Below, piece after piece: positions 2,821 through 25,182 of a DNA stretch of 32,495 nt. This DNA is from a virus, in IMG/VR virus record IMGVR_UViG_3300025168_000348, positions 1 to 32,495 of that record; one strand, written 5' to 3'. The notes under the pieces are model-generated. The model was given only the letters and a program-made list of their open reading frames with translations. It did not search any database and was not told where the DNA came from. A program made the translations under genes and the position numbers. Position 1 is the first letter of the stretch, and each line of letters begins with the position of its first letter.

Positions 2821-5219
2821 TGAACAGAAGTTTGATGGGCAGACAAATGTTTGCTAAAGGCGGAGAAGCAAAATCATTCCCGGATTACAGCGGAGATGGA
2901 CAAATAACGCAAAAAGACATTTTGATGGGTCGTGGTGTGTTGCCTATGCAAGAAGGTGGTACGGTTCCCATGGACCCCATGATGGCTGACCCCATGATGG
3001 CTGATCCCATGATGGCTGATCCCATGATGGACCCTTCTTCAGGTTTTACTCCTGAAAACAATCCAGAAGCTGTGCAAAATGCAATGATGGCCGCCGCTGA
3101 AAACTTTGGCAACTTAGATGATGCTGATGATTATGAAAGCATGATCAATATGATCCGGGGCGATCAAGCTCCGATGGCAGAAAGAGTTAATGAGCTAGCT
3201 GAACTAGTTGGTTTAGAGGACGCCCAACAGACTCCGCAGTCCGTTGTTGCTCTTATACAACCTGTAATGTTAATGACTAATTTGGACGAAGGTATAGGAA
3301 GTATTGCACAAGGTGCGATGGATCAGGAAATGACCGGGGATATGGCCGGAGGTATCATGTCTACCGTCAATATGGATTCTGGACCTGAAATGAGCCTTGA
3401 CCCTAACATGGACCCTCAAATGGGAATGGGGGTTGGTAACGAACCGCCTGTAAATTTTAGGTTTGGCGGCCCGGTCGCCAGAATGCAAGACGGCGGCGAA
3501 TCAAGACTTTCCCAGTTGTTTGCAGAACAACAAGGTGTTTTAAATCAAAACTTTGCGCCTCGATCGGGTGTTGATGCTGATTTAGAACGTCAAAAAGAAC
3601 TTACCGAAGCGCAAATGTTGTTTGATGTTGCCGGTACGGCCTTGGCATTTGCAACACCCGGATCTCGTCAGATGAGTCCTGCACAAAGATTAGCTGAAGC
3701 GGCCACTGAAACCAAACTTTTTGACAAACTAGGTGCTCGAGCACAAGGTCAATTCGAAGCTGAAAAAGCCTCTAAAGAAGCTTTGCGGTCTGAAAAACGC
3801 GACCTCGATTTATTAGCGTTTAAAGGCGCTCAAGATCAGCTAGATCGTGAGCTTCAAATGACTCCTGCTAAATTGTTTGATTTTAAAGTTGTTGATGGAC
3901 AAATAGTTAAAACTAACAATAAAACAGGCGGTGTTAGTTTAGCATTTACCGGAAGAGACAAAATAGATTTTTTGACTATGGGCGACAACATCCTCGCCGC
4001 AAACCCTATTAGCGGCAACGTAGAAGTAGCTTTTACAGACACTTCTCCTAATTTAAAAGTTTTATCTAAAGGTCAACAAATTATAGATGCAGACACAGCC
4101 GAAGTAATTTACACAGCACCTGAAAACGCGCAATTGGAAAAAATGGGTAACTTCTTAGTTGACACTACTAATCGGACGCCTGACGGGAATGCCACTGTAA
4201 TTTTTGAAGCGCCTGATTATGAAGTAGATGAAATAAACGGTCAGTTAGTTCAATACAAAAAAGGCGATCCCGATTCGGCGGTTGCTATCTTTGGCGAAGA
4301 AGGTATTGATATTGATCCTGTTTACATGGTCCAAACAGATATGAACACCGGTGTAAAAACCACTTTTGATGCTACAACGCCAAATGGTGCGGCTATGTTG
4401 AAAAACGCTAACCAAGCTAATCAACAAGCCGGGTCGACTGTATTTACAATAGGTAAATTAAGTTCAGATAAAACACCTTCTGCACAAGCATTCAACCTAG
4501 GCAGTGAAATAGTGCTAAGTTTTGATGGTGGAAGAACTTACGTAAACTCTTTGGGCGTTACAACGGCCATGCCTACTACCGGCGCCGTTCCTGTAAGTGA
4601 CACCATCGCGTCGGAAGTAATGAAGAACCAACGCATATCGCAAAGAGCCGGTGAAGAATCAAATGCTTTTTACGATCGTTTTTATGAAGAGCAAGGTTAT
4701 GAAGCAGAAGATAGAAAGTTGTTTAGAGATACCGCTAAAGCGGCTATGAATGGAACAGGATTTGCGGCTAAACTACGAAGTGCCGTAGATAAAACTTTAG
4801 GTCAACTAGGGGTTGACTACGGAGAAGAGACTGAAGCTGACAAGCAATATTTACGTGCAATTCGACAAATGACAAAAACCGCTCTAATTGTAAATCCACG
4901 GTTCCCGGTTGCTGAATTATCAAAAGTTGAAGATTTGTATCCAGATGTAGACAGTTTTTTTGTAAGCCCTGATTCTCAGGTTAATCGGTTAAGAGAGTTG
5001 AAAAGAGTTGTTCTAGCGCAAAAGGAACATAACTTAACCAAGTTAGCAGGAGGCGCTTTAAGTGCCGATGACAACGCTAAAGTATTAGCAAATAACCAAG
5101 AGATAAGTCGATTGTTGATGTATATAGGGCCTTTGGGCGTTGGGTCTACGTCTTACGGTGGTAATAAAGAAGAAATGGAAGCTTCATTTAAGAAATTGCA
5201 AGAAAAAGTAAGAAATTAA
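2817..5219 (+). CDS. Large virion-associated protein with EF-hand-like loop
   Basis: An 800-residue protein whose ATG overlaps the stop of the preceding gene by four bases, which suggests translational coupling. The N-terminus is Met/Gly-rich. It holds a calcium-loop-like DYSGDGQITQKD at residues 23-34, with Asp/Ser/Asp at loop positions 1, 3 and 5, Gly at 6 and Asp at 12, as in EF-hand or dockerin loops. A Met-Met-Ala-Asp-Pro tandem repeat follows around residues 52-70. Short Gly-Gly motifs (MFAKGGEAK, RFGGPVARMQDGG) punctuate the first 230 residues. The rest is a mixed-composition domain with no catalytic motif I recognise. Position between two giant structural proteins suggests a late virion component. 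The exact role is unknown. Confidence 0.8.
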   Translation: MMNRSLMGRQMFAKGGEAKSFPDYSGDGQITQKDILMGRGVLPMQEGGTVPMDPMMADPMMADPMMADPMMDPSSGFTPENNPEAVQNAMMAAAENFGNLDDADDYESMINMIRGDQAPMAERVNELAELVGLEDAQQTPQSVVALIQPVMLMTNLDEGIGSIAQGAMDQEMTGDMAGGIMSTVNMDSGPEMSLDPNMDPQMGMGVGNEPPVNFRFGGPVARMQDGGESRLSQLFAEQQGVLNQNFAPRSGVDADLERQKELTEAQMLFDVAGTALAFATPGSRQMSPAQRLAEAATETKLFDKLGARAQGQFEAEKASKEALRSEKRDLDLLAFKGAQDQLDRELQMTPAKLFDFKVVDGQIVKTNNKTGGVSLAFTGRDKIDFLTMGDNILAANPISGNVEVAFTDTSPNLKVLSKGQQIIDADTAEVIYTAPENAQLEKMGNFLVDTTNRTPDGNATVIFEAPDYEVDEINGQLVQYKKGDPDSAVAIFGEEGIDIDPVYMVQTDMNTGVKTTFDATTPNGAAMLKNANQANQQAGSTVFTIGKLSSDKTPSAQAFNLGSEIVLSFDGGRTYVNSLGVTTAMPTTGAVPVSDTIASEVMKNQRISQRAGEESNAFYDRFYEEQGYEAEDRKLFRDTAKAAMNGTGFAAKLRSAVDKTLGQLGVDYGEETEADKQYLRAIRQMTKTALIVNPRFPVAELSKVEDLYPDVDSFFVSPDSQVNRLRELKRVVLAQKEHNLTKLAGGALSADDNAKVLANNQEISRLLMYIGPLGVGSTSYGGNKEEMEASFKKLQEKVRN
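2976..3035 (+). repeat. 15-nt tandem repeat encoding PMMAD
   Basis: Four consecutive 15-base units starting at 2976, 2991, 3006 and 3021 encode Pro-Met-Met-Ala-Asp, the last unit diverging to Pro-Met-Met-Asp-Pro. The first three differ only at the third base of the Asp codon. This looks like recent in-frame slippage in the N-terminal segment of the 800-residue virion protein. Confidence 0.8.
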
Positions 5220-8200: not shown

Positions 8201-8723
8201 TGGTCCCGGATCTTTAATTGCGGCAGGTGCAGGTGCAAAAGCAATGCGTAAAGTTTTTGACGATTTACCGGCAAGTGCAAAAATAGATGTTATGACAGAA
8301 GTAATGGAAAACCCAAAATTGTTGGCCATGATGTTGCGAAAGTCTTCTACAGACACAGAAAAAACAAAACAAGCTTTAAACATACGATCTGCATTTATAG
8401 ATGCAGGGATATTATATCCACTTCGTAGAACAATTCCGTTGACTACGAGTGACGAAGAGATAGTTATAGAAGAAGAAACTCAAGCGCCTGTGCAAGTACA
8501 ACCACAAAGAAGTCCGCCGCCTGTACAAGTACAATCACAGCCGCCACCGGCTCCACAACTTCAAGTACCGATGCCACCTCCCACCCCGGCACCGGCACCT
8601 GTCGCGCAATCCACGGCTCCGAATCCGGGGCCCGTGGATCGCTCTATGTATGCGGCAATGTTTCCCAACGATGTTGCTTCAAGTTTGATTCGTCAACAGG
8701 GAATTGGAAGCTTGATGGGATAA
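5232..8723 (+). CDS. Giant internal virion / ejection-like protein
   Basis: A 1163-residue protein starting 12 bases after the previous stop. Residues about 110-165 form a Gly/Ala-rich hydrophobic stretch with short membrane-like segments, and a similar Gly/Ala stretch recurs near residues 295-340. The centre is mostly charged and helical. Residues about 1080-1140 form a Pro/Gln/Val-rich linker with PPP and PVQVQ repeats, followed by a conserved-looking C-terminal tail (RSMYAAMFPNDVASSLIRQQ). Large size, membrane-like patches and position at the end of the structural block resemble ejected internal virion proteins of podoviruses, but I see no lytic transglycosylase signature. The role is inferred from context. 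Confidence 0.75.
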   Translation: MQENEIQNLKIDPVTFSKEEMDEYVQRFSDYEGGPARAIAETLASEFETKNPALNYNLLKSGNSPLFKDPDYAVFADGLTDEQMLMLFIQDEQGNPIREKGFFDGGVSRRVVPATTGAAGFAGGFKAGVAAQSPIPPAGPAALVAKAVIPVATGILGSLFGYTVGEEAQEAVIGPESPTLPSDRSAVAAGQTFTDVVSGVLTPGMMPKNVVLGGGAYLKNLSKMREEMLTPEGALRSTGDVGEDINRAFSPEAKAVLNKDPLGARLNRGIENFVGRQSADMSEKGILGFTKTEAKFGAGAAGGAYLAEEIAPGSGGARFAGEMAGGLGSNLVVSPLMLLVNNRQNIIDASKSKVRGLTKSGRQQNAVNRIAEILEASETEDLADIIRRLETANLGDSLVDEAGQVIPQTAAMKSGSPILMAIEASLDQLGSDLGQQRSTSSKASIQAIRTLVVGMARSGDQQQLQVAADLAQDIFTSAQTKRLTEATDRVLSAFESVEGRNPQNNMQLSEKLYDVVRQQIKFARARENELWKNVKNVTIPIDDISDGYKPPFITAWDDLLPDTPEARDEVIGPLRALNKFVNRKSAEFGLDADGVPTAGATLSTRELTDMRSIALNEARKLRASGDNNAARIAEEFSESLLDTLDNVQGLTKTGVFVDNQTDYEMARAYSRSLNDTFTRAFAGEVLDKSKKGGTRTPPELLAHRLFQGGADPTYVRSAQISEIGNFAIEQGLPDADLTVNTLAGVTEALLRNARSATFDQNTGAINRKALEKWMNANESVLEQFPNLKRDLNNSLLADQMLSEAYITNKAQDAGLKGQVTFKNLLSSSRDGGTESPTTAVAMALSNAQKTPIKQLNNLLEVANSPADEALRQEALIGLKSSILEWAFTKGGATSKGFSPQVLFKTMFEEMPKAEGRISLADWMTSNNVIGKDDLKNLKTYVAEMVRYEGAQADGTLDELVERAGPVLDMYLAISGSVLGTGVQRAMGMEGGPGSLIAAGAGAKAMRKVFDDLPASAKIDVMTEVMENPKLLAMMLRKSSTDTEKTKQALNIRSAFIDAGILYPLRRTIPLTTSDEEIVIEEETQAPVQVQPQRSPPPVQVQSQPPPAPQLQVPMPPPTPAPAPVAQSTAPNPGPVDRSMYAAMFPNDVASSLIRQQGIGSLMG

Positions 8724-9793: not shown

Positions 9794-9928
9794 ATGGATA
9801 TGGCAGACCTTACTAAAGCTCAGACAAAAAAAATGATTAAAGAGTTGAAAAACGCATCTCGGCTTCACGCTAATCAGGCAAAAACTTTAGAAAAAACTTT
9901 GAAGAAAATCAAGAAAGCCAGTTCTTAG
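9794..9928 (+). CDS. 44-residue basic helical protein
   Basis: It is preceded by a good Shine-Dalgarno sequence (AGAGGAAC ending one base before the ATG). The product is Lys-rich and strongly helical (LTKAQTKKMIKELKNASRL, then LEKTLKKIKKASS). A second ATG lies two codons in. Its last 20 bases overlap the 3' end of the minus-strand helicase gene, and no terminator is visible between these convergent genes. It may bind DNA or acidic partners; function unknown. Confidence 0.55.
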   Translation: MDMADLTKAQTKKMIKELKNASRLHANQAKTLEKTLKKIKKASS

Positions 9929-11366
9929 TGTTTTCACCGAGCACTTGACCTGCTAAATTTACTTTGTTCCGCAACGCCTGTAATATTTTTTCATCAATCG
10001 TGCCCGGCGCAACTAGATCTATGTACGTCACTGCTTTCTTTTGCCCTATTCTATGCGCACGATCCTCAGACTGTAGCCTTATCTCCAAGTCATAGCTGTT
10101 ACTGTAATAAATGACCGTGTTTGCTTCGGTCAGAGTAATGCCGTAACCTCCTGTTTTTGGTTGCCCTACAAAGAATCGTAGTTCAGACTCGGGCTTCTGA
10201 AACTCCTCTACAATGTTTTGTCGTTCATCTTGTTCCGTATCTCCATAATAAGTAGCCACGGCTCCCGGTCCAAATTTATCTTGCAAACTTTTAGCTATCT
10301 CTTTGATATCATGCGTGTATGAAGCCCAGATAATAACTTTTCCCTGTAGCTCGTCTGTAATTTCCAAAAGTTCTTTCATTCGGTTGTTTGGTAATAACTC
10401 TATTTCTCCATCATCTGGTTGCAAAAATCCGCAACAGATTTGTTGTAACCTCATAATTTGCGTTAACACACTAGCGGTCGTAGCAAGCTCTCCGCTTTCT
10501 AGTTTAGCAAGAGCTAGCTTTTTCATTTGGTTATAAACCCTAATTTGTTCGTCAGTAAGGGTAATGTCTCGACGTATGTACAACTTTTCTGGTAAGTCTA
10601 AACAATCTATTTTAAGCACTCTGTTGCTAAACTTATCTAGTTTCTCGTTAAGCTCATCTAACCGACGGTAACCCGTAATTTCTTGAAAACTACGTTGTCC
10701 CATCACCCGGCGTTGCACAATCGAGTACCGACTTTGAAATGCAAAGTAACTATTAAACCCTAAAGCCTTGTCTGTCAGAAACAAGCACTGGCTAAACAAA
10801 TCCATTGGGCTTTTTGTGATCGGACTTCCGGTTAGTATCCTGCGATACTTGCTTATCTTATTCATTCCTATAATGTTTTTAGTCCGTGCGGCTTGTCTGT
10901 TTTTGATTGTGGTCGACTCATCAACAATCACTAGGTTTTGTGGGTTTTTGTTTAAAAATTCGTAACCTTTTCGTGCGGCTCTCGGCGTTGAAAAAGCTTC
11001 TGTGTTCATGACAAATATTTTAAGATCCTCGTGATCTCTGTATATAAAATCGTCTAACTCATCGTTATATTTTCGTGCAGAACTAGGTGTCCAACGTAAG
11101 ATAGATTTCTCTATGCGGTCAGGCACGTGCGTGGGTATCTCACCACGGATCCAATTGTCATAAACTCCTTTTGGAGCTATGACTAAACATGCTTTTATCT
11201 TTTTTTCTTCGTACAACATAGACATTGTGTCTAACGCTACTTTAGTTTTACCCGTTCCCATTTCCATCAATAAAGCGTAAAACGGTTTGTCCCACGAGTC
11301 CGATAATGCTTGACGTTGGTGTGCAAAAGGTTGCGTTTTGTACTCAAAATTATTTATTTTTTGCAT
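9909..11366 (-). CDS. SNF2-family DNA helicase/translocase
   Basis: A 485-residue superfamily 2 ATPase. Motif I is MGTGKT at residues 36-41, motif II is DEST at 149-152, motif III-like TGSP at 179-182, and motif VI is RAHRIGQ at 436-442, the characteristic SNF2 signature. It has no extra accessory domain, so it is a minimal SNF2 motor such as many phages carry next to replication genes. It would move along double-stranded DNA using ATP, for example to clear proteins from DNA or aid replication or recombination. It is the only minus-strand gene here and is divergent from the replication operon. Its promoter (TTGACA-N16-TATACT, 11422 down to 11395) overlaps the operon promoter. An AAGGAG site lies about 11 bases ahead of the ATG. 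Confidence 0.93.
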   Translation of the reverse strand: MQKINNFEYKTQPFAHQRQALSDSWDKPFYALLMEMGTGKTKVALDTMSMLYEEKKIKACLVIAPKGVYDNWIRGEIPTHVPDRIEKSILRWTPSSARKYNDELDDFIYRDHEDLKIFVMNTEAFSTPRAARKGYEFLNKNPQNLVIVDESTTIKNRQAARTKNIIGMNKISKYRRILTGSPITKSPMDLFSQCLFLTDKALGFNSYFAFQSRYSIVQRRVMGQRSFQEITGYRRLDELNEKLDKFSNRVLKIDCLDLPEKLYIRRDITLTDEQIRVYNQMKKLALAKLESGELATTASVLTQIMRLQQICCGFLQPDDGEIELLPNNRMKELLEITDELQGKVIIWASYTHDIKEIAKSLQDKFGPGAVATYYGDTEQDERQNIVEEFQKPESELRFFVGQPKTGGYGITLTEANTVIYYSNSYDLEIRLQSEDRAHRIGQKKAVTYIDLVAPGTIDEKILQALRNKVNLAGQVLGENTKNWLS

Positions 11367-12892: not shown

Positions 12893-14425
12893 ATGATTGA
12901 AAAATTCATGACCATTTTTGATGGTCTGCAAGAAGCCTACGGTACATTCAAGATAGAAAAACAGGCCGCCAATGGTAAGGCGCAGGGTAAAGCGCGATTG
13001 GTCCGCGAACCACGCACAAAAATATTGTGGGAACATCATCTAGTTGGAAAAAATGGAATAGGCATAATTCCAATCAATGAACATAATGATTCAAAATGGG
13101 GTTGTATTGATATAGATCAGTACCCTCTCGATCACAAGTTGTTAGTCGAAAAAATTAAAAAATTAAAATTACCTTTGATTGTGTGCCGCTCTAAATCTGG
13201 CGGTGCGCACTGCTTTCTATTCACTCAAGATTGGGTAGAAGCTAAGGATATGCAAAAGACCTTGCAAGCTATGAGCGCGGCGTTGGGATATGGTGAGAGT
13301 GAAATATTCCCAAAACAAGTCAAGCTTCACCTCGACCGGGGTGATGTCGGTAACTTTCTAAACCTTCCTTACTTCAATGCAGAAGAAGGTCTACGTTATG
13401 CAATAAAAGATGATGGAACCTCCGCTACACTTCAAGAGTTTTTTGATATGTACGATGCACGTGCGCAGACTTTAGAACAACTGCAAGCTTTGCAGGTTGT
13501 GGATAACTCACAGTCTTCTTTGTTAGCGGATGGTCCACCGTGCTTACAAATACTGTGTACCAATAAAATCTCAGAGGGAGGGCGAAACAACGGGTTGTTT
13601 AACATTGGTGTTTATCTGCGCAAAGCATATCCAGATTCGTGGGAGGCGGAGGTTCTTAGTTATAACATGCAGTACCTTGTTCCCCCTCTGCCGTTGAATG
13701 AGGTTAATCTAGTTGTTAAACAACTGCACCGTAAAGATTATGCCTACAAGTGTAATGATGCTCCAATCAATTCACACTGTAACAAAGAGCTTTGCCGAAC
13801 TAGAAAGTACGGCGTGGGTGCGGCAATACAGGGCGCGTCCATTGCAAACCTTAGAAAGTATGATTCTACACCTCCGGTTTGGTTTATGGATGTTAACGGC
13901 GAACCTTTGGAGCTTGATACTGAAGGGTTGATGAGTCAACCGGTCTTCCAAAAAGCATGTATGGAGCAGTTAAACTTTATGCCGAGATCCGTACAGAAAC
14001 AAACATGGGAAAGCCGCATTAGTGCTTTGCTTACCGACATGAAAGACAACGAGTCTGCAATTATCGAAGTGGCGCAAGATGCCAGTTCAGCAGGACAGTT
14101 CTACGATTACTTAGAAGAGTTCTGTCGATTTCTACAACAAGCACAAGATAAAGAAGAGATCTTGCTCCGCCGCCCATGGACAGATGATGAGACAAACCTT
14201 ACTTATTTTAGGTTGCGGGATTTTGAAAGTTTTTTATCTAAAAACAAATGGTTTGTATACAAGAGTCACAAGATTGCGCAGAGGTTGCGCGACATTAACG
14301 GGGAGAGCACGGTGTTAAAGATAAAAGGTAGGTCTGTACGGGTTTGGTCAGTTCCGGCATTCGAGTCAGCAGACATTGATATCACTACGCCGAAATTTGG
14401 TGGACAAAATGAGGTTCCATTTTAA
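12893..14425 (+). CDS. Archaeo-eukaryotic-type (TOTE-like) primase
   Basis: A 510-residue primase. The catalytic Asp pair is CIDID (Asp73, Asp75) and the nucleotide-binding motif is SGGAH (residues 102-106). Both are hallmarks of AEP primases, here most like the primase domain named after TOTE conflict systems. The second half carries a PriCT-like segment with Cys/His-rich HCNKELCRTRKYG, seen in many phage primases. It would synthesise primers for PolA. I prefer the ATG at 12893, about 9 bases from AAGG, over an in-frame GTG at 12887, which is too close to that site. The stop overlaps the ATG of the sigma-4-like gene. No DnaB-type helicase is visible, so an associated helicase must be one of the SF1/SF2 enzymes here or a host enzyme. 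Confidence 0.85.
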   Translation: MIEKFMTIFDGLQEAYGTFKIEKQAANGKAQGKARLVREPRTKILWEHHLVGKNGIGIIPINEHNDSKWGCIDIDQYPLDHKLLVEKIKKLKLPLIVCRSKSGGAHCFLFTQDWVEAKDMQKTLQAMSAALGYGESEIFPKQVKLHLDRGDVGNFLNLPYFNAEEGLRYAIKDDGTSATLQEFFDMYDARAQTLEQLQALQVVDNSQSSLLADGPPCLQILCTNKISEGGRNNGLFNIGVYLRKAYPDSWEAEVLSYNMQYLVPPLPLNEVNLVVKQLHRKDYAYKCNDAPINSHCNKELCRTRKYGVGAAIQGASIANLRKYDSTPPVWFMDVNGEPLELDTEGLMSQPVFQKACMEQLNFMPRSVQKQTWESRISALLTDMKDNESAIIEVAQDASSAGQFYDYLEEFCRFLQQAQDKEEILLRRPWTDDETNLTYFRLRDFESFLSKNKWFVYKSHKIAQRLRDINGESTVLKIKGRSVRVWSVPAFESADIDITTPKFGGQNEVPF

Positions 14426-18666: not shown

Positions 18667-18828
18667 ATGGACACAGAAAAATGGAAAAGTGTGCTTGTTC
18701 CAAAAGAAGTTTATGAGGAAATCAAGCTCAGAGCTAAAACAGAAGGGCGTACAATTAGCGGTCAGCTACGTGTTATGTTTAGTTCTTACAAAGAATCTGA
18801 AAAATTAAAAAAAATTTATAAAGATTGA
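18667..18828 (+). CDS. Small ribbon-helix-helix (Arc-like) DNA-binding protein
   Basis: A 53-residue protein with GGGAG seven bases ahead of the ATG. The sequence WKSVLVPKEVYEEIKLRAKT then ISGQLRVMF has the beta strand plus two-helix pattern of Arc/MetJ-type repressors (strand KSVLVP, helix 1 VYEEIKLRAKTEG, helix 2 TISGQLRVMFSSYK). Such proteins dimerise and bind operators through the strand. It is the first gene of the small-gene region and probably regulates early or delayed promoters nearby. Targets are unknown. Confidence 0.7.
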   Translation: MDTEKWKSVLVPKEVYEEIKLRAKTEGRTISGQLRVMFSSYKESEKLKKIYKD

Positions 18829-18835
18829 TTATTTC

Positions 18836-18864
18836 TGTACTAATCCCATATTATCGCGTATAGT
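18836..18864 (+). promoter_or_regulatory. Promoter of the candidate small RNA
   Basis: TGTACT (18836-18841), a 17-base spacer and TATAGT (18859-18864). The segment CCCATATTATC in its spacer is repeated at 18950-18960 before the next gene. The promoter faces a stretch with no ORF that ends in a terminator. Confidence 0.45.
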
Positions 18865-18870
18865 TTACTC

Positions 18871-18939
18871 CGTGCTCCGTAGGCACTAAGTGGTCTAAAA
18901 AGGTCCTCGTAATGTTATTCATTGCGGGGGCTTTTTTTT
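18871..18939 (+). ncRNA. Candidate small RNA with anti-Shine-Dalgarno loop
   Basis: This stretch holds no ORF but lies between a sigma-70-like promoter and a strong intrinsic terminator, so an RNA of about 70 bases is predicted. Its 5' part folds as GTGC (18872-18875), a seven-base loop TCCGTAG (18876-18882) and GCAC (18883-18886). CTCCGTAG at 18875-18882 is the exact complement of CTACGGAG, the ribosome-binding motif ahead of genes at 20081, 21057, 23429, 24242 and 24745; genes at 19001 and 22817 share seven bases (TACGGAG). A second CTCCGT sits just upstream (18868-18873). It could repress these genes by pairing with their ribosome-binding sites. The promoter, RNA and regulation are all inference from sequence. 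Confidence 0.4.
18905..18939 (+). terminator. Intrinsic terminator
   Basis: Ten-base stem CCTCGTAATG / CATTGCGGGG with two G-T wobbles and loop TTATT, followed by GC and eight T. It ends the noncoding unit that starts at about 18871. Confidence 0.85.
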
Positions 18940-18993
18940 GTTGCAAAGTCCCATATTATCCTATAGAGTCTTACTACTTTTTAACTTACGGAG
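18938..18993 (+). promoter_or_regulatory. Promoter and TACGGAG leader of the 19001 gene
   Basis: A possible promoter TTGTTG (18938-18943), 18-base spacer, TATAGA (18962-18967), then TACGGAG (18987-18993) seven bases ahead of the ATG. CCCATATTATC at 18950-18960 copies the spacer of the preceding promoter. The -35 is poor, so the promoter call is weak. The ribosome-binding site is clear. Confidence 0.35.
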
Positions 18994-19000
18994 TGCAAAA

Positions 19001-19222
19001 ATGAGCGAGAAACAATTTGTTGATGGTCTGATGATCAAAAAACCTAATCCCAATGCGCCTGATTGGATAAAATTTAACGGATCTATCAAACGTGAGGACA
19101 TGATCACGTGGTTAAACTCGATGACCGGGGATTGGATTAACATACAGGTTTGCGAGTCTAAGTCTGGAAAATGGTATGCAGAGGTTGACAATTGGAAGCC
19201 AGAAAGTCAAGGTGGTCAATGA
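19001..19222 (+). CDS. Conserved-looking small protein of the early region
   Basis: A 73-residue protein starting at the ATG after the TACGGAG site; an upstream in-frame ATG at 18938 falls inside the terminator and promoter and is not credible. The sequence (KQFVDGLMIKKPNPNAPDWI, then KSGKWYAEVDNWKPE) is of a type I recall from several unrelated phages, with a conserved ESKSGKWYAEVDNWKP end. It is probably a small beta-rich domain. Function unknown. It overlaps the next gene by ATGA and likely heads a four-gene operon reaching 19795. Confidence 0.75.
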   Translation: MSEKQFVDGLMIKKPNPNAPDWIKFNGSIKREDMITWLNSMTGDWINIQVCESKSGKWYAEVDNWKPESQGGQ

Positions 19223-20040: not shown

Positions 20041-20080
20041 TGTGGATAAACCACTTAACCAGTTCTACGGAGATTTACCT

Positions 20081-20500
20081 ATGGATATTAAAAAAGACTT
20101 TTTGGCTTATATAGACTGCGGCGGTTGCGGTACTTGGGGTAGAGACAAAAACCCTAAAGAGGCTGTCGGACTTGCAATCAAAGCTTTCGTTCGAGACTTT
20201 TGTACCGATTCTGGAACCAACACCGGGAAAAAGTTAATAATAGAAGTTGCTGATGTAACAGGCTATGACAAAATCAATTTCGGAGGGAGCCGGGGCATCT
20301 GGTCCGGTGATGGTGATGATAAGACGTTCGACAGTGTGTGGTATACAGCCGTCGTTCCCGCCAAGACCCACAAGAAGCAGGTGTTGCACGGCAGACCTTA
20401 TCAGGCGTTACTCAAGAAAGCTTTGAGTGAAATGGAAGCCCTGCCATCAATCGAAGATGAGAGTGACGACATACTCATCCAAGATGGATTGCCTTTATAA
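20081..20500 (+). CDS. Hypothetical early protein
   Basis: A 139-residue protein. I chose the ATG at 20081 because CTACGGAG sits eight bases before it; an in-frame ATG at 20027 lies in the boxA leader. The N-terminal part contains CGGCG and WGRDKNPKEAVGLAIKAFV. The middle is Gly-rich (INFGGSRGIWSGDGDDKTFD) and the C-terminus is acidic (IEDESDDILIQDGLPL). No family is recognised. As first gene behind the strongest promoter it may be an immediate-early product that acts on the host. This is inference. Confidence 0.7.
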   Translation: MDIKKDFLAYIDCGGCGTWGRDKNPKEAVGLAIKAFVRDFCTDSGTNTGKKLIIEVADVTGYDKINFGGSRGIWSGDGDDKTFDSVWYTAVVPAKTHKKQVLHGRPYQALLKKALSEMEALPSIEDESDDILIQDGLPL

Positions 20501-20802: not shown

Positions 20803-21060
20803 ATGGAAGAAGTAAAACGCAAGCGCGGTAGACCACCAAGTGGTCTTACCAAAAACGAACTCTCACAGCGTTCTAAAATAAAGCGTGAAACCAAAAACAT
20901 CACCATCAATGGTGAAGAACTACTTAAACGATTTCTGGATTATAAAAAGCTTGAGTCCGGGTCAATCGGGTTTGAAATAAATAACTCGCAGTTCCTCGCC
21001 GTCCTTCTCAACACGTGGATAAGAAGCAAAGCCCAAAACGCTACGGAGGATGAGTCATGA
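20803..21060 (+). CDS. Small basic protein with AT-hook motif
   Basis: An 85-residue protein beginning MEEVKRKRGRPPSG; RKRGRPP is a canonical AT-hook that binds the minor groove of AT-rich DNA. The rest (NITINGEELLKRFLDYKKLE, then FEINNSQFLAVLLNTWI) is helical. It is likely DNA-binding, possibly a regulator or a replication accessory acting at the AT-rich array downstream. Its coding end contains CTACGGAG (21041-21048), which is the ribosome-binding site of the next gene, and the two overlap by ATGA. Confidence 0.65.
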   Translation: MEEVKRKRGRPPSGLTKNELSQRSKIKRETKNITINGEELLKRFLDYKKLESGSIGFEINNSQFLAVLLNTWIRSKAQNATEDES

Positions 21061-21335
21061 AACTAGAACTAGCGCAATGGGAAGTGATGTTCGCCCTAAC
21101 AAACTACATCAAAGAAGAATACGGCATGGAATGCGACCTCACAGATGGAATCGACGAAGCATCTATCCAATACCAAAAACAAATAGTACCACCAAAGAAA
21201 TACAAAAATGGACGACCCATCAAAAACGAACACGGCTACCCCGTACTCGACTACAAAAACGCAACTTACGAAGACAGGATAATATCATGGGGAGAAACAG
21301 ACTCGATAGCCGTGTACCTAACCTCAATCCCATAA
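21057..21335 (+). CDS. Hypothetical early protein
   Basis: A 92-residue protein coupled to the AT-hook gene by a four-base overlap. It shows ALTNYIKEEYGMECDLTDGI and a Lys/Pro-rich middle (IVPPKKYKNGRPIKNEHGYP). Synonymous positions favour C and A more than in neighbours. The 3' end overlaps the next gene by 49 bases in another frame. No family recognised. Confidence 0.65.
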   Translation: MKLELAQWEVMFALTNYIKEEYGMECDLTDGIDEASIQYQKQIVPPKKYKNGRPIKNEHGYPVLDYKNATYEDRIISWGETDSIAVYLTSIP

Positions 21336-21695: not shown

Positions 21696-21813
21696 GTAAG
21701 CAGATAATTGCGTTAAAGCCCCGAAAATTAAAAAAATATAAAAAAGAGTTAGATATTGGTATATATAAAGGATTATTTTTAGGTAAACTATCGCTTATTA
21801 ACTGGAGTATCGA
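21696..21813. other. AT-rich leader of the terminase small subunit gene
   Basis: Very AT-rich noncoding bases with A runs and TATATAAAGG near 21760. No good -35/-10 pair stands out. CTGGAG at 21802-21807 is the ribosome-binding site of the next gene. With the iterons upstream it could serve as a DNA-unwinding region, or simply hold a promoter I cannot define. Confidence 0.3.
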
Positions 21814-22443
21814 ATGTCTAAGAAAGCCCTGCCGAAATCCGCACCGGTTGTCGAGAAGAAAAAGTCTGGAAGACCGCGGATAAACAAGAATTCTATCCTG
21901 ACTCGCAAGCAAGAACTTTTTGTTAAAGAGTTGGTTAGCAAAGATGGACAGATAACTTTGAGGGAAGCCGCGATCAACGCGGGTTATCCGGCATCGTCCG
22001 CGCACACTAGAGCCTACGAACTAACTAACCCCCACATTTCTCCTCATGTTGTCAACGCGATTAAAAGTTATCGTAACGAACTAGACGAAAAGTTTGGCGT
22101 TACATTCCAACGGCATCTTAGAGATCTGCAAAGCATAAGAGATCTGGCTATACAAAATGGTGCATACTCTGCCGCAGTGCAAGCCGAGTATCGGCGGGGA
22201 CAAGCTCATGGTGATATTTATGTCAGCAAGTCTGAGATCAGGCACGGCAGTATCGATTCGATGAGTAAAGAAGAGGTGGAAAAAGCTTTAATGGAACTAA
22301 AGGATCAATATGCCCCGGTCACCATCGACATTACACCCGAGTCCAATAACACCAGTAACCGTGACAAAGCGAGAAGCCGCCTTTTATCAGCAGATGAAGA
22401 CCGCGGCGAAGACATCGAAGACGCGACGCCTGTCGTTCACTAG
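21814..22443 (+). CDS. terS: Terminase small subunit
   Basis: A 209-residue protein. After a basic, AT-hook-like N-terminus (KKKSGRPRINK) comes LTRKQELFVKELVSKDGQIT then LREAAINAGYPASSAHTRAY, the helix-turn-helix DNA-binding domain of phage terminase small subunits. The middle is a helical oligomerisation region (FQRHLRDLQSIRDLAIQNGA), and the C-terminus is acidic and polar. It should recognise the packaging site and load the large subunit. It is separated from the large subunit gene by about 3.4 kb of small genes, which is unusual. Its last 134 bases overlap the next ORF in another frame. Confidence 0.85.
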   Translation: MSKKALPKSAPVVEKKKSGRPRINKNSILTRKQELFVKELVSKDGQITLREAAINAGYPASSAHTRAYELTNPHISPHVVNAIKSYRNELDEKFGVTFQRHLRDLQSIRDLAIQNGAYSAAVQAEYRRGQAHGDIYVSKSEIRHGSIDSMSKEEVEKALMELKDQYAPVTIDITPESNNTSNRDKARSRLLSADEDRGEDIEDATPVVH

Positions 22444-22774: not shown

Positions 22775-22810
22775 CATAATATCGTATACCCATTAACTTA
22801 ACTTACGGAG
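22775..22810 (+). promoter_or_regulatory. Promoter-like element and TACGGAG leader
   Basis: CATAATATCGTATACC (22775-22790) resembles the doubled TATA-type boxes of the other small units, followed by TACGGAGG (22804-22811), six bases before the ATG at 22817. No clear -35 is seen. Confidence 0.35.
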
Positions 22811-22816
22811 GACAGA

Positions 22817-23005
22817 ATGGATTTGTTAGGAGATAGACGAGCCAAACAAAAAGCACAAGTTTTGACAGTCTTGGGAGCGTTGGCTTATGAGACCGAGAAC
22901 TTGATAGAATCAGAATCATCGTCAGATGAAGTTATACACAGTGTGCACGAATTGGCGTGGTCGTTGGTGCATGTTTCAAGAGAACTAGAAACGGAGGATG
23001 CATAA
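22817..23005 (+). CDS. Small acidic hypothetical protein
   Basis: A 62-residue acidic helical protein (VLTVLGALAYETENLIESES, then HELAWSLVHVSRELETEDA) with a strong TACGGAGG ribosome-binding site. It abuts the next gene. No family recognised; probably forms a helical hairpin or dimer. Confidence 0.6.
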   Translation: MDLLGDRRAKQKAQVLTVLGALAYETENLIESESSSDEVIHSVHELAWSLVHVSRELETEDA

Positions 23006-23387: not shown

Positions 23388-23419
23388 TAATATGCGATAA
23401 GTCTTATATAACTACGGAG
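23388..23419 (+). promoter_or_regulatory. Promoter-like element and CTACGGAG leader
   Basis: TAATAT (23388-23393) and TATAAC (23407-23412) are alternative -10 boxes; no good -35 is visible. CTACGGAG (23412-23419) is nine bases before the ATG at 23429 and is fully complementary to the loop of the candidate small RNA at 18871-18939. Confidence 0.4.
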
Positions 23420-23428
23420 CCAATTAAG

Positions 23429-24121
23429 ATGAAACTGTTAAACATTAGTGGAGCAAATACTAAAATTGCAAAAACAATTAAGACCGGGGGAGACATACGG
23501 GTTGCTAGTCTGTCTCTGATGCCTGACCGAAAAATTTGTGCCGGCAGTAAAGCGGCGGGATGTTTCGAACCCTGTTTAAAATCTAGTGGTAGAGGAGTAT
23601 TTAAAAACGTCGCAAGTGCAAGACAAAAGAAAACAGATTTTTATCTCTCAGATTCGCAGGGATTTCTCAAGCAATTACGATCAGAGTTAACTAATTTTGA
23701 CAAACTTTGCAAACGTCAAAAGCTTGCAGGTTGGGTGCGATTAAATACTATTTCTGATATAGCATATGAGGACCACGGAATACCCCAAAGTTTCCCCGAT
23801 TTAAACTTTTACGATTACACAAAACGCGCTAACCGGTTAGGAAATACACCAGACAATTATAAATTAATCTTTAGCTATAGCGGTCGAAAGCAGTATCAAA
23901 AAAGCGTTATGCAAAGACCGCACAATGTCCCGATGGCGGTGGTTTTTCGCGACGGTTTACCGAGTCATTGGAATGGTCAACCCGTCATCGACGGCGATCT
24001 TTCTGACATTGTCAACGTGAAATCCGGCGCTGTAATAGTTGGATTACGTGCGAAGGGTAAAGCTAAAAAGGATACTTCTGGTTTTGTTGTCGATTCCAAT
24101 TTAATAGCAATCGGAGGTTAA
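23429..24121 (+). CDS. GP88-like phage protein with Cys motif
   Basis: A 230-residue protein alone in its transcription unit. Its first third has a conserved-looking Cys cluster (ICAGSKAAGCFEPCLKSSGR), followed by WVRLNTISDIAYE, DLNFYDYTKR and YKLIFSYSGR. This pattern matches the phage family named after mycobacteriophage gp88, whose function is unknown; the assignment is from memory of the motif order. The three Cys could hold a metal. It has its own leader and terminator, like a moron gene. Confidence 0.6.
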   Translation: MKLLNISGANTKIAKTIKTGGDIRVASLSLMPDRKICAGSKAAGCFEPCLKSSGRGVFKNVASARQKKTDFYLSDSQGFLKQLRSELTNFDKLCKRQKLAGWVRLNTISDIAYEDHGIPQSFPDLNFYDYTKRANRLGNTPDNYKLIFSYSGRKQYQKSVMQRPHNVPMAVVFRDGLPSHWNGQPVIDGDLSDIVNVKSGAVIVGLRAKGKAKKDTSGFVVDSNLIAIGG

Positions 24122-24137
24122 AAAAATCCGTAGGACT

Positions 24138-24162
24138 AGCCCGCCATCGCGCGGGCTTTTTT
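24138..24162 (+). terminator. Intrinsic terminator
   Basis: AGCCCGC / GCGGGCT stem, six-base loop, six T. The stem is identical to those at 24641 and 25361. Confidence 0.9.
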
Positions 24163-24169
24163 ATGGAGC

Positions 24170-24199
24170 TTTACTTATTATATAAAAGTCCTATATAAT
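24170..24199 (+). promoter_or_regulatory. Sigma-70-like promoter of the 24242 gene
   Basis: TTTACT (24170-24175), an 18-base spacer and TATAAT (24194-24199), placed just after the terminator of the previous unit. The same TTTACT-N18 layout recurs before the 24745 gene. Confidence 0.6.
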
Positions 24200-24202
24200 C
24201 CC

Positions 24203-24246
24203 ATACGTGGAATTAACCACATAACTACGGAGTAATAAAAAATGTC
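24203..24246 (+). repeat. 44-base leader direct repeat, copy 1
   Basis: A 44-base sequence identical to 24706-24749, running from ATACGTGGAATTAACCAC through CTACGGAG (24225-24232) to the first five bases of the coding sequence (ATGTC). It contains GTGG / CCAC arms around AATTAA. Confidence 0.92.
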
Positions 24247-24622
24247 CATTGAAATAAAAAGTGATTTAGATTATTTAGACCAACTAGCCGCTGATTCTAT
24301 TGCCGAAGGGCGCGAGGAAATAGCGAAAGATTTTAGAGCCGCCGCGCTAGACATTAAGAATTTATCGGAGGAGGCGAAAAGACGCGAGGAACGGAACGAG
24401 GAGCTCATCGAGAGATTAAACACTCTAGAGGGTAACGCCGGCGTCGTTCTGATTAATGAGTTAGAGAAAATGATCGACCGCAAAATATCGGAGCGGCTAG
24501 AAATTAATGGAAGCACTGATGACCACGTTGAACGCATATTAAGAGAGTTAATTAACGGCGGAGACGTATGTGTTGATGTTGATTACACAAATCTTGAGCT
24601 CGAACTAACCCTATCGTGCTAA
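24242..24622 (+). CDS. Coiled-coil acidic hypothetical protein
   Basis: A 126-residue protein in a one-gene unit. Residues about 20-65 are a charged coiled coil (EEIAKDFRAAALDIKNLSEE, then REERNEELIERLNTLEG), followed by NELEKMIDRKISERLE and a beta-like acidic C-terminus with a final Cys (VCVDVDYTNLELELTLSC). No family recognised. The leader is shared with the 24745 gene. Confidence 0.65.
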   Translation: MSIEIKSDLDYLDQLAADSIAEGREEIAKDFRAAALDIKNLSEEAKRREERNEELIERLNTLEGNAGVVLINELEKMIDRKISERLEINGSTDDHVERILRELINGGDVCVDVDYTNLELELTLSC

Positions 24623-24640
24623 ATAATTTGCGTAGGACTA

Positions 24641-24665
24641 AGCCCGCCGCGACGCGGGCTTTTTT
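24641..24665 (+). terminator. Intrinsic terminator
   Basis: AGCCCGC / GCGGGCT stem with loop CGCGAC and six T, preceded by GTAGGACTA as before the terminator at 24138. Confidence 0.9.
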
Positions 24666-24672
24666 ATGGGTG

Positions 24673-24702
24673 TTTACTTTATACCCTAAACTCTTATATA
24701 CT
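24673..24702 (+). promoter_or_regulatory. Sigma-70-like promoter of the 24745 gene
   Basis: TTTACT (24673-24678), an 18-base spacer and TATACT (24697-24702). Layout and position match the promoter at 24170-24199. Confidence 0.6.
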
Positions 24703-24705
24703 CTT

Positions 24706-24749
24706 ATACGTGGAATTAACCACATAACTACGGAGTAATAAAAAATGTC
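24706..24749 (+). repeat. 44-base leader direct repeat, copy 2
   Basis: Identical over 44 bases to 24203-24246, covering the untranslated leader, the CTACGGAG site (24728-24735) and the start codon. The genes that follow are not similar in protein sequence. Confidence 0.92.
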
Positions 24750-25182
24750 AAACAATCAACAGATATTCAATCTTAGAACCTCAGATCTTGTACTGGATCG
24801 CACCATCAACCCAACGAAAAGCGATAAGTTGAAAAACGCTAAACCCTCAAACATTGTGGAAGCTTGCGGTCTTATCCCCGACTTTTTCGCTGATGCCTGT
24901 CTGGAGTGGGTAGACCGTGATAGTGATCTAACTCTTGAGGCCATTGCTGACAATATGGACCAGATATACGGATTCGGCGGATTTGCTTACCCTTATGATG
25001 GAACCGTCTCTGATGAAGGTATGTATATCAGCAAGCATGAGGAGGATGACCCGCTCCCTCCACTGGCTCGTTACGTGTTCGAAGGGAATACACCCATCTT
25101 CGAATGTTTTGTATATGAATACGCGATTACTGCGATACGTGATACGAGCACCGGTAAAACAAAGGTTGCGAGGTTTGACTAA
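24745..25182 (+). CDS. Hypothetical early-region protein
   Basis: A 145-residue protein behind the second 44-base leader. It includes LTLEAIADNMDQIYGFGGFA and a C-terminal half with EGNTPIFECFVYEYAITAIR. No catalytic motif or family recognised. It is likely a soluble globular protein. It overlaps the next small gene by one base (TAATG). Confidence 0.7.
   Translation: MSNNQQIFNLRTSDLVLDRTINPTKSDKLKNAKPSNIVEACGLIPDFFADACLEWVDRDSDLTLEAIADNMDQIYGFGGFAYPYDGTVSDEGMYISKHEEDDPLPPLARYVFEGNTPIFECFVYEYAITAIRDTSTGKTKVARFD

Follow-up and report, generated by a model that had tools for sequence, protein, structure and literature searches.

A conserved small-RNA unit of uncultured phages predicted to pair with a Shine-Dalgarno motif shared by a set of the phages' own genes

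The DNA analysed here, referred to as the window, is the 32,495 bases of IMG/VR virus record IMGVR_UViG_3300025168_000348. It carries a small ribbon-helix-helix (RHH) gene followed by a candidate small-RNA unit and then by a gene for a conserved 73-aa protein, the FVDG protein. The coordinates of these features, and of the leaders discussed below, are listed in the table. The RHH assignment is supported by a match to Pfam PF07878 (28.2 bits, cutoff 26), and the order of the genes is the same in relatives.

The small-RNA unit comprises a candidate promoter, a 5' hairpin and an intrinsic terminator. Positions 18865–18937 fold at -31.4 kcal/mol with a z-score of -6.4, which is dominated by the terminator. 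The first hairpin is GUGCU-CCGUA-GGCAC, with CCGUA in the loop and an outer stem UUACU/AGUGG, and it is followed by the terminator hairpin. The terminator scan of the window listed no site at the unit, presumably because the T run was counted into the 18-bp stem. The octamer CTCCGTAG occurs once on the + strand of the window, and CTCCGT is present a second time at 18868. The unit contains no ORF reaching 40 aa. The original prediction, which was made from this sequence alone, had described a promoter-terminator unit without an ORF, and both its fold and its coordinates for the octamer, the second CTCCGT and the leader motifs are exact. The promoter part of that description is less secure, as it is only a weak consensus match within a block kept in relatives (CCCATA..TATCGCGTATAG). 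An alternative promoter, TTGATT-18-TATTAT at 18825–18854, also matches the consensus weakly (9/12), and a promoter scan found 3 sites vs 1.2 expected. A search of the window against Rfam gave no match at the gathering cut-off; CopA (RF00042, 22.2 bits vs a cut-off of 60) and ctRNA_p42d (RF00489, 23.4 bits vs 50) were rejected.

Table. Positions in the window of the small-RNA unit, its neighbouring genes and the leaders considered
Feature	Position	Strand	Basis or remark
Small RHH gene (ribbon-helix-helix, CopG-like, RHH_5)	18667..18828	+	Directly upstream of unit; syntenic anchor
Candidate promoter TGTACT-17-TATAGT	18836..18864	+	Sequence; block kept in relatives
Putative small RNA (hairpin exposing the octamer on the 5' side, intrinsic terminator on the 3' side)	18865..18939	+	Fold; unit conserved in relatives
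Antisense octamer CTCCGTAG in hairpin loop	18875..18882	+	Invariant in distinct CTCCGTAG units
Terminator hairpin, 18 bp, loop UUAUU, with T run	18897..18939	+	Folding
Conserved 73-aa gene (FVDG protein)	19001..19222	+	Downstream of unit; syntenic anchor; without match in Pfam or PHROG
Target leader TTACGGAG (G.U pair at end)	18986..19003	+	Gene 19001-19222
Target leader CTACGGAG	20065..20083	+	Gene 20081-20500
Target leader CTACGGAG	21041..21059	+	Gene 21057-21335
Target leader TTACGGAG	22803..22819	+	Gene 22817-23005
Target leader CTACGGAG	23412..23431	+	GP88-like gene 23429-24121
Target leader CTACGGAG	24225..24244	+	Gene 24242-24622
Target leader CTACGGAG	24728..24747	+	Gene 24745-25182
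Non-target control leader AACTGGAG of terS (21814-22443)	21800..21816	+	Essentially unchanged in all groups

The complement of the octamer recurs at the Shine-Dalgarno (SD) position of phage genes. CTACGGAG is present at five of the leaders in the table and TACGGAG also at 18987 and 22804, while a further CTACGGAG at 4817, missing from the original list, is inside an ORF. CTACGGAG has 7 matches on both strands of the window vs 0.43 expected, and TACGGAG-N3-10-ATG has 7 vs 0.27; for neither was 7 reached in any of 100 shuffles. The claim that the loop is complementary to the SD of at least seven genes is therefore borne out, as 7 of the 43 window leaders carry the complement there. When the 1,680 permutations of the octamer were compared to the 43 leaders, CTCCGTAG gave an exact match to 5 and a seven-base match to 7, whereas each of the remaining 1,679 matched one at most. 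Ranking by pairing energy, which had been proposed as a check, covered 40 leaders, and six of the seven top predicted duplexes involve motif leaders. One criterion for a trans-acting base-pairing small RNA is more complementarity to separate mRNAs than chance would give, and the unit fulfils it. The genes concerned encode one GP88-like protein and small proteins without a family match, and all lie downstream of the polymerase gene.

Other repeats are found in the same region. The terminators following genes 23429 and 24242 (24127–24165 and 24629–24665) start with TCCGTAGGACTAGCCCGCC and GCGTAGGACTAAGCCCGCC, respectively. TCCGTAGGACTAGCCCGCC shares seven bases with the antisense octamer and is similar to 18876–18890 (TCCGTAGGCACTAAG), and it is possible that the terminator at 24127–24165 is a 3'-end relative or the source of the small RNA. 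Near-identical leader cassettes (ACGTGGAATTAACCACATAACTACGGAGTAATAAAAAATG) occur at 24190–24247 and 24693–24750, preceding two unrelated genes. Within the RNA, the first copy of CTCCGT (TTACTCCGT, 18865–18873) can also pair with ACGGAGTAA in these cassettes.

The region has no DNA match among named phages. The DNA polymerase of the window is 50–56% identical to those of phage DSL-LC04, phage 023Pt_psg01 and the Pelagibacter phages HTVC023P and HTVC027P, and the small-RNA unit is absent from all four of these nearest named polymerase relatives. A weak homologue in MW202828 is non-syntenic and was rejected. The downstream protein (19001–19222) has no homologue among named phages and no relative in the bacterial genome collection. 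On the basis of this last result and of gene content, the phages that carry the unit are inferred to be virulent, apparently without sign of lysogeny.

Relatives were instead found among uncultured viruses. A polymerase search yielded 80 viral contigs, which are metagenomic, often fragments and in some cases near relatives of one another, and whose gene starts were called mechanically. In the nearest of these, the unit is likewise located between the RHH gene and the 73-aa gene, and it occupies the same place, between the RHH gene and the small conserved gene, in more than 100 IMG/VR loci. A pattern combining the octamer with the terminator core matches 82 stretches in IMG/VR. All 35 distinct units, which were gathered by their CTCCGTAG, keep the octamer, its spacing and the gene neighbourhood, while the flanking bases differ strongly. 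The stems beside the octamer are rebuilt with different pairs in different phages (GAACATG/CATGTTC, AACACCA/TGGTGTT and GTGCAG/CTGCAC), and the 5' stem is GTGC/GCAC in the window's group and ACGC/GCGT in contig L045. Further, the octamer is in an apical loop in the window's group, but in most relatives, including the larger sister group, it is in the linker between the 5' hairpin and the terminator. Judged from these units, the conserved feature is the exposed octamer and not the exact hairpin. Several relatives have no recognisable octamer (L017, L024, L069, L071 and L081).

Where the octamer differs, the leaders differ with it. Contig L094 has CTCCGTGT in its syntenic unit and ACACGGAG or ATACGGAG in its leaders, so that pairing is retained. 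Leaders were classified by the two bases preceding ACGGAG at the SD position, in 31 contigs with CTCCGTAG and nine with CTCCGTGT. The former have 73 leaders with CT/TT and 7 with AC/AT, the latter 1 and 12 (Fisher 1.4e-9); this value is uncorrected for relatedness and the counts are not independent by descent. Twenty additional CTCCGTAG contigs, new to the analysis and taken from the pattern scan, give 44 and 4. Over 225 kb, the 22 contigs without the octamer contain only 5 ACGGAG leaders, compared with 100 over 404 kb. In the polymerase tree, the window's group is nested within the CTCCGTAG diversity, the CTCCGTGT contigs appear at one or two places, and the octamer has been lost several times independently.

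Individual genes follow the same pattern. An orthologous gene of 123 aa (50% identity) has the leader CTACGGAG in contig L063 and ACACGGAG in L094. The DUF932 gene has (C/T)TACGGAG in eight CTCCGTAG contigs and AACTAGGAG in L162, where the RNA octamer is CTCTATAG, at 82–89% protein identity. By comparison, the SD of terS, a non-target, remains AACTGGAG or nearly so across all groups, whatever the RNA. The criterion of compensatory change in RNA and targets is met, both by CTCCGTGT with ACACGGAG/ATACGGAG and by the L063/L094 orthologous pair. As far as can be read from sequence, these coordinated changes are compensatory evolution, in nature, between an antisense RNA acting in trans and a set of leaders of its own phage. 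The covariation of loop and leader which the original prediction had asked for is thus present, in that CTCCGTGT units accompany ACACGGAG/ATACGGAG leaders. Leaders kept by phages that had lost the loop would have refuted it; instead, octamer and leaders are kept together, changed together or both absent.

The pattern does not extend to every group. Groups with CTCTGTAG or CTCTATAG have no convincingly matching target leaders. Their CTATGGAG leaders were not counted, because these pair only with G.U wobbles and are present in contigs without the unit as well. Whole-RNA duplex energies averaged per contig did not cleanly separate own from foreign leaders and were, for that reason, left out as proof. 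A CTCTGTAG match in L095 is not the unit, and a CTCCGTGT match in L024 is a false positive within other sequence. Separately, L129 has an RNA unit without the octamer (ACCTTTAGTTGGTTAGTGAG, 9915–9945) and leaders at 14398, 14885 and 16551 with CACTAAC and AAAGG. This looks like a further independent co-change, as does the L024 leader CAACTAACCGATAGG, with each resting on a single contig or leader.

The largest sister group has a second complementarity. Here, the terminator loop of the RNA, UUGCCC, faces leader hairpins with the loop GGGCAA. GGGCAA is located at most 48 bases upstream of the octamer complement in 23 of 47 target leaders vs 6 of 300 others (p 1e-17). Folding places it as the exact apical loop of a leader hairpin in most cases, on a stem that varies from case to case, and places TTGCCC as the exact apical loop of the sister-group terminator. 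In 22 contigs there are 42 GGGCAA-loop hairpins in sense and 5 in antisense, vs 3.4 for permuted loops; those preceding a target number 23, where 59 permuted loops average 0.14. Twenty further contigs gave 27 sense and 6 antisense hairpins, 9 of them before targets, where the permuted maxima are 7 and 5. The order of the two contacts along RNA and leader permits both to form simultaneously.

This second site also varies on both sides. The L094 unit has TTTCCCC as its terminator loop, and where the L063 leader has the loop GGGCAA, its L094 orthologue shows GGGGAAA. DUF932 leaders of the CTCCGTGT group have the loop ACGGGATA, which gives 4–5 pairs with TTTCCCC, ATCCCC or CTTCCCC. A second contact was sought in the window's own group and not found, the terminator loop there being UUAUU and the leader loops AATTAA, ATTTA and TGG. 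A double contact like that of OxyS, with one site masking the SD, is therefore met as a criterion in the sister group only, and the window's group has one contact. In a target gene of 138–143 aa, a GGGCAA-loop hairpin is present in the coding region, around 85 bases past the start, in L040 (18590), L057 (12994) and L072 (18280); in its orthologues in L053, L062 and L110 the hairpin is upstream of the SD.

Conservation of the octamer, the SD position of its complements, their coordinated change and the loop–loop complementarity are established at the level of sequence. To explain them, we propose that the unit yields a short antisense RNA, about 70 nt long, which acts in trans and presents the octamer CUCCGUAG unpaired. 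The octamer would pair with CUACGGAG, which is the SD in a set of small genes lying downstream of the polymerase gene. Pairing would most likely block ribosome binding, and translation of the whole set would drop jointly. In the sister group, the contact between terminator loop UUGCCC and leader loop GGGCAA, upstream of the SD, would add affinity and specificity. We hold with considerable confidence that such an RNA pairs with a set of its phage's own SDs and most likely lowers their translation together, and so most likely serves as the master switch of an entire phage gene set. Transcription of the RNA, pairing in trans, repression by SD masking and timing in infection are inferences made without transcript or expression data.

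The evidence for pairing is silent on the sign of regulation. The same contacts could allow the RNA to activate or stabilise the leaders, or the leaders could be sponges that titrate an RNA aimed mainly at host mRNAs; phage RNAs with host targets, such as PreS and VpdS, have been reviewed (PMC12197685). We regard this as unlikely, since the paired stretch includes the SD itself, an arrangement that ordinarily blocks initiation, and since several motif leaders per genome are remodelled along with the RNA, which sponges alone would not need. The unit could also be a cis element, that is, an attenuator or leader of the FVDG gene for which pairing with distant leaders is secondary. The original prediction had allowed for read-through pairing at 18987, and in the window's group, where the FVDG leader has TTACGGAG, this is possible. 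In the sister group the terminator immediately precedes the SD of the FVDG gene, and a read-through RNA can pair CTCC with the GGAG found there. The leader of this downstream gene nevertheless lacks the octamer complement, which is present in leaders kilobases away that switch with the octamer. A cis attenuator or riboswitch should have the downstream gene as its conserved pairing partner, and as the larger sister group fails this, cis pairing of the octamer can apply only to the window's group. There, TTACGGAG at 18986 may confer an added cis role, which is not the conserved part; as an account of the unit itself the cis reading is very improbable.

Still less can be said for a DNA-level element, in which CTCCGTAG/CTACGGAG is the operator of a protein such as the RHH regulator whose gene adjoins the unit. 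The motif is in strictly opposite orientation in unit and leaders, the leader copies are at SD spacing, and the separate loop–loop complementarity, with its rebuilt stems, is left unexplained by a DNA-binding site. That a lineage-specific SD and an unrelated conserved terminator unit match by coincidence is hardly conceivable. CUACGGAG does include the general SD core GGAG, but the match extends four bases past this core, at most one leader is matched by any of the 1,679 alternative permutations, and the two sides vary in concert.

Bacterial RNAs with anti-SD loops mask the SDs of several mRNAs using unpaired, C-rich loops that match the general SD. The loop of the phage RNA, in contrast, fits a distinctive phage SD, and the two are re-coded jointly. 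OxyS makes two loop contacts with E. coli fhlA, one over the ribosome-binding site, and is proposed to block initiation (PMC2946933). The proposed RNA resembles it in acting in trans and, in the sister group, in a double leader contact with SD masking, although homology is not claimed. OxyS is bacterial and its second fhlA contact is in the coding region, whereas the RNA described here is phage-encoded, faces a set of own-phage leaders and has its second contact, in the sister group only, upstream of the SD.

Among phage RNAs, P22 sar interferes with translation initiation and P1/P7 c4 pairs around the ant ribosome-binding site (PMC12197685). Like these and lambda OOP, the proposed RNA pairs with phage mRNA. 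However, sar, c4 and OOP belong to temperate phages and have one target and a role in the lysogeny decision, while here several dispersed leaders share one motif and there is no sign of lysogeny. VpdS of phage VP882 and PreS of lambda are likewise phage-encoded and trans-acting; they work with Hfq on host mRNAs and, for VpdS, on phage mRNAs also (PMC12197685). The only Hfq-related feature visible in the unit is the U tail. VpdS and PreS come from temperate phages, and that review describes no shared-SD address with co-changing leaders for them. Overall, described phage regulatory RNAs are mostly from temperate phages and target one phage gene or the host (PMC12197685). No phage RNA with a shared SD address was found in the open-access papers searched, subscription papers being outside the scope of the search.

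We lean towards reading the system as a private translational address, where one RNA reads a phage-specific SD word, in one branch together with a kissing loop, on scattered genes and times the set, the word being rewritten on both sides across lineages. An apparently virulent, widespread group of uncultured phages seems to govern a set of its own genes with one RNA. Because nature already provides compensatory variants of both RNA and leaders, plasmid reporters allow a direct test of the circuit, of how specific it is and of how it evolved, with neither phage nor host required.

Two additional features were seen near the units. The words TATGCGAT / ATCGCATA are repeated close to promoter-like sequences at sister-group unit promoters and many target leaders (for example, L027, 8750–8800; L053, 16400–16447), and are perhaps operators of the adjacent RHH regulator; they are not enriched in the window (3 vs 1.1 expected). 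In L149, a glutamine riboswitch (Rfam RF01739, 55.9 bits) is present on the minus strand at 8301–8351, just before the small-RNA unit.
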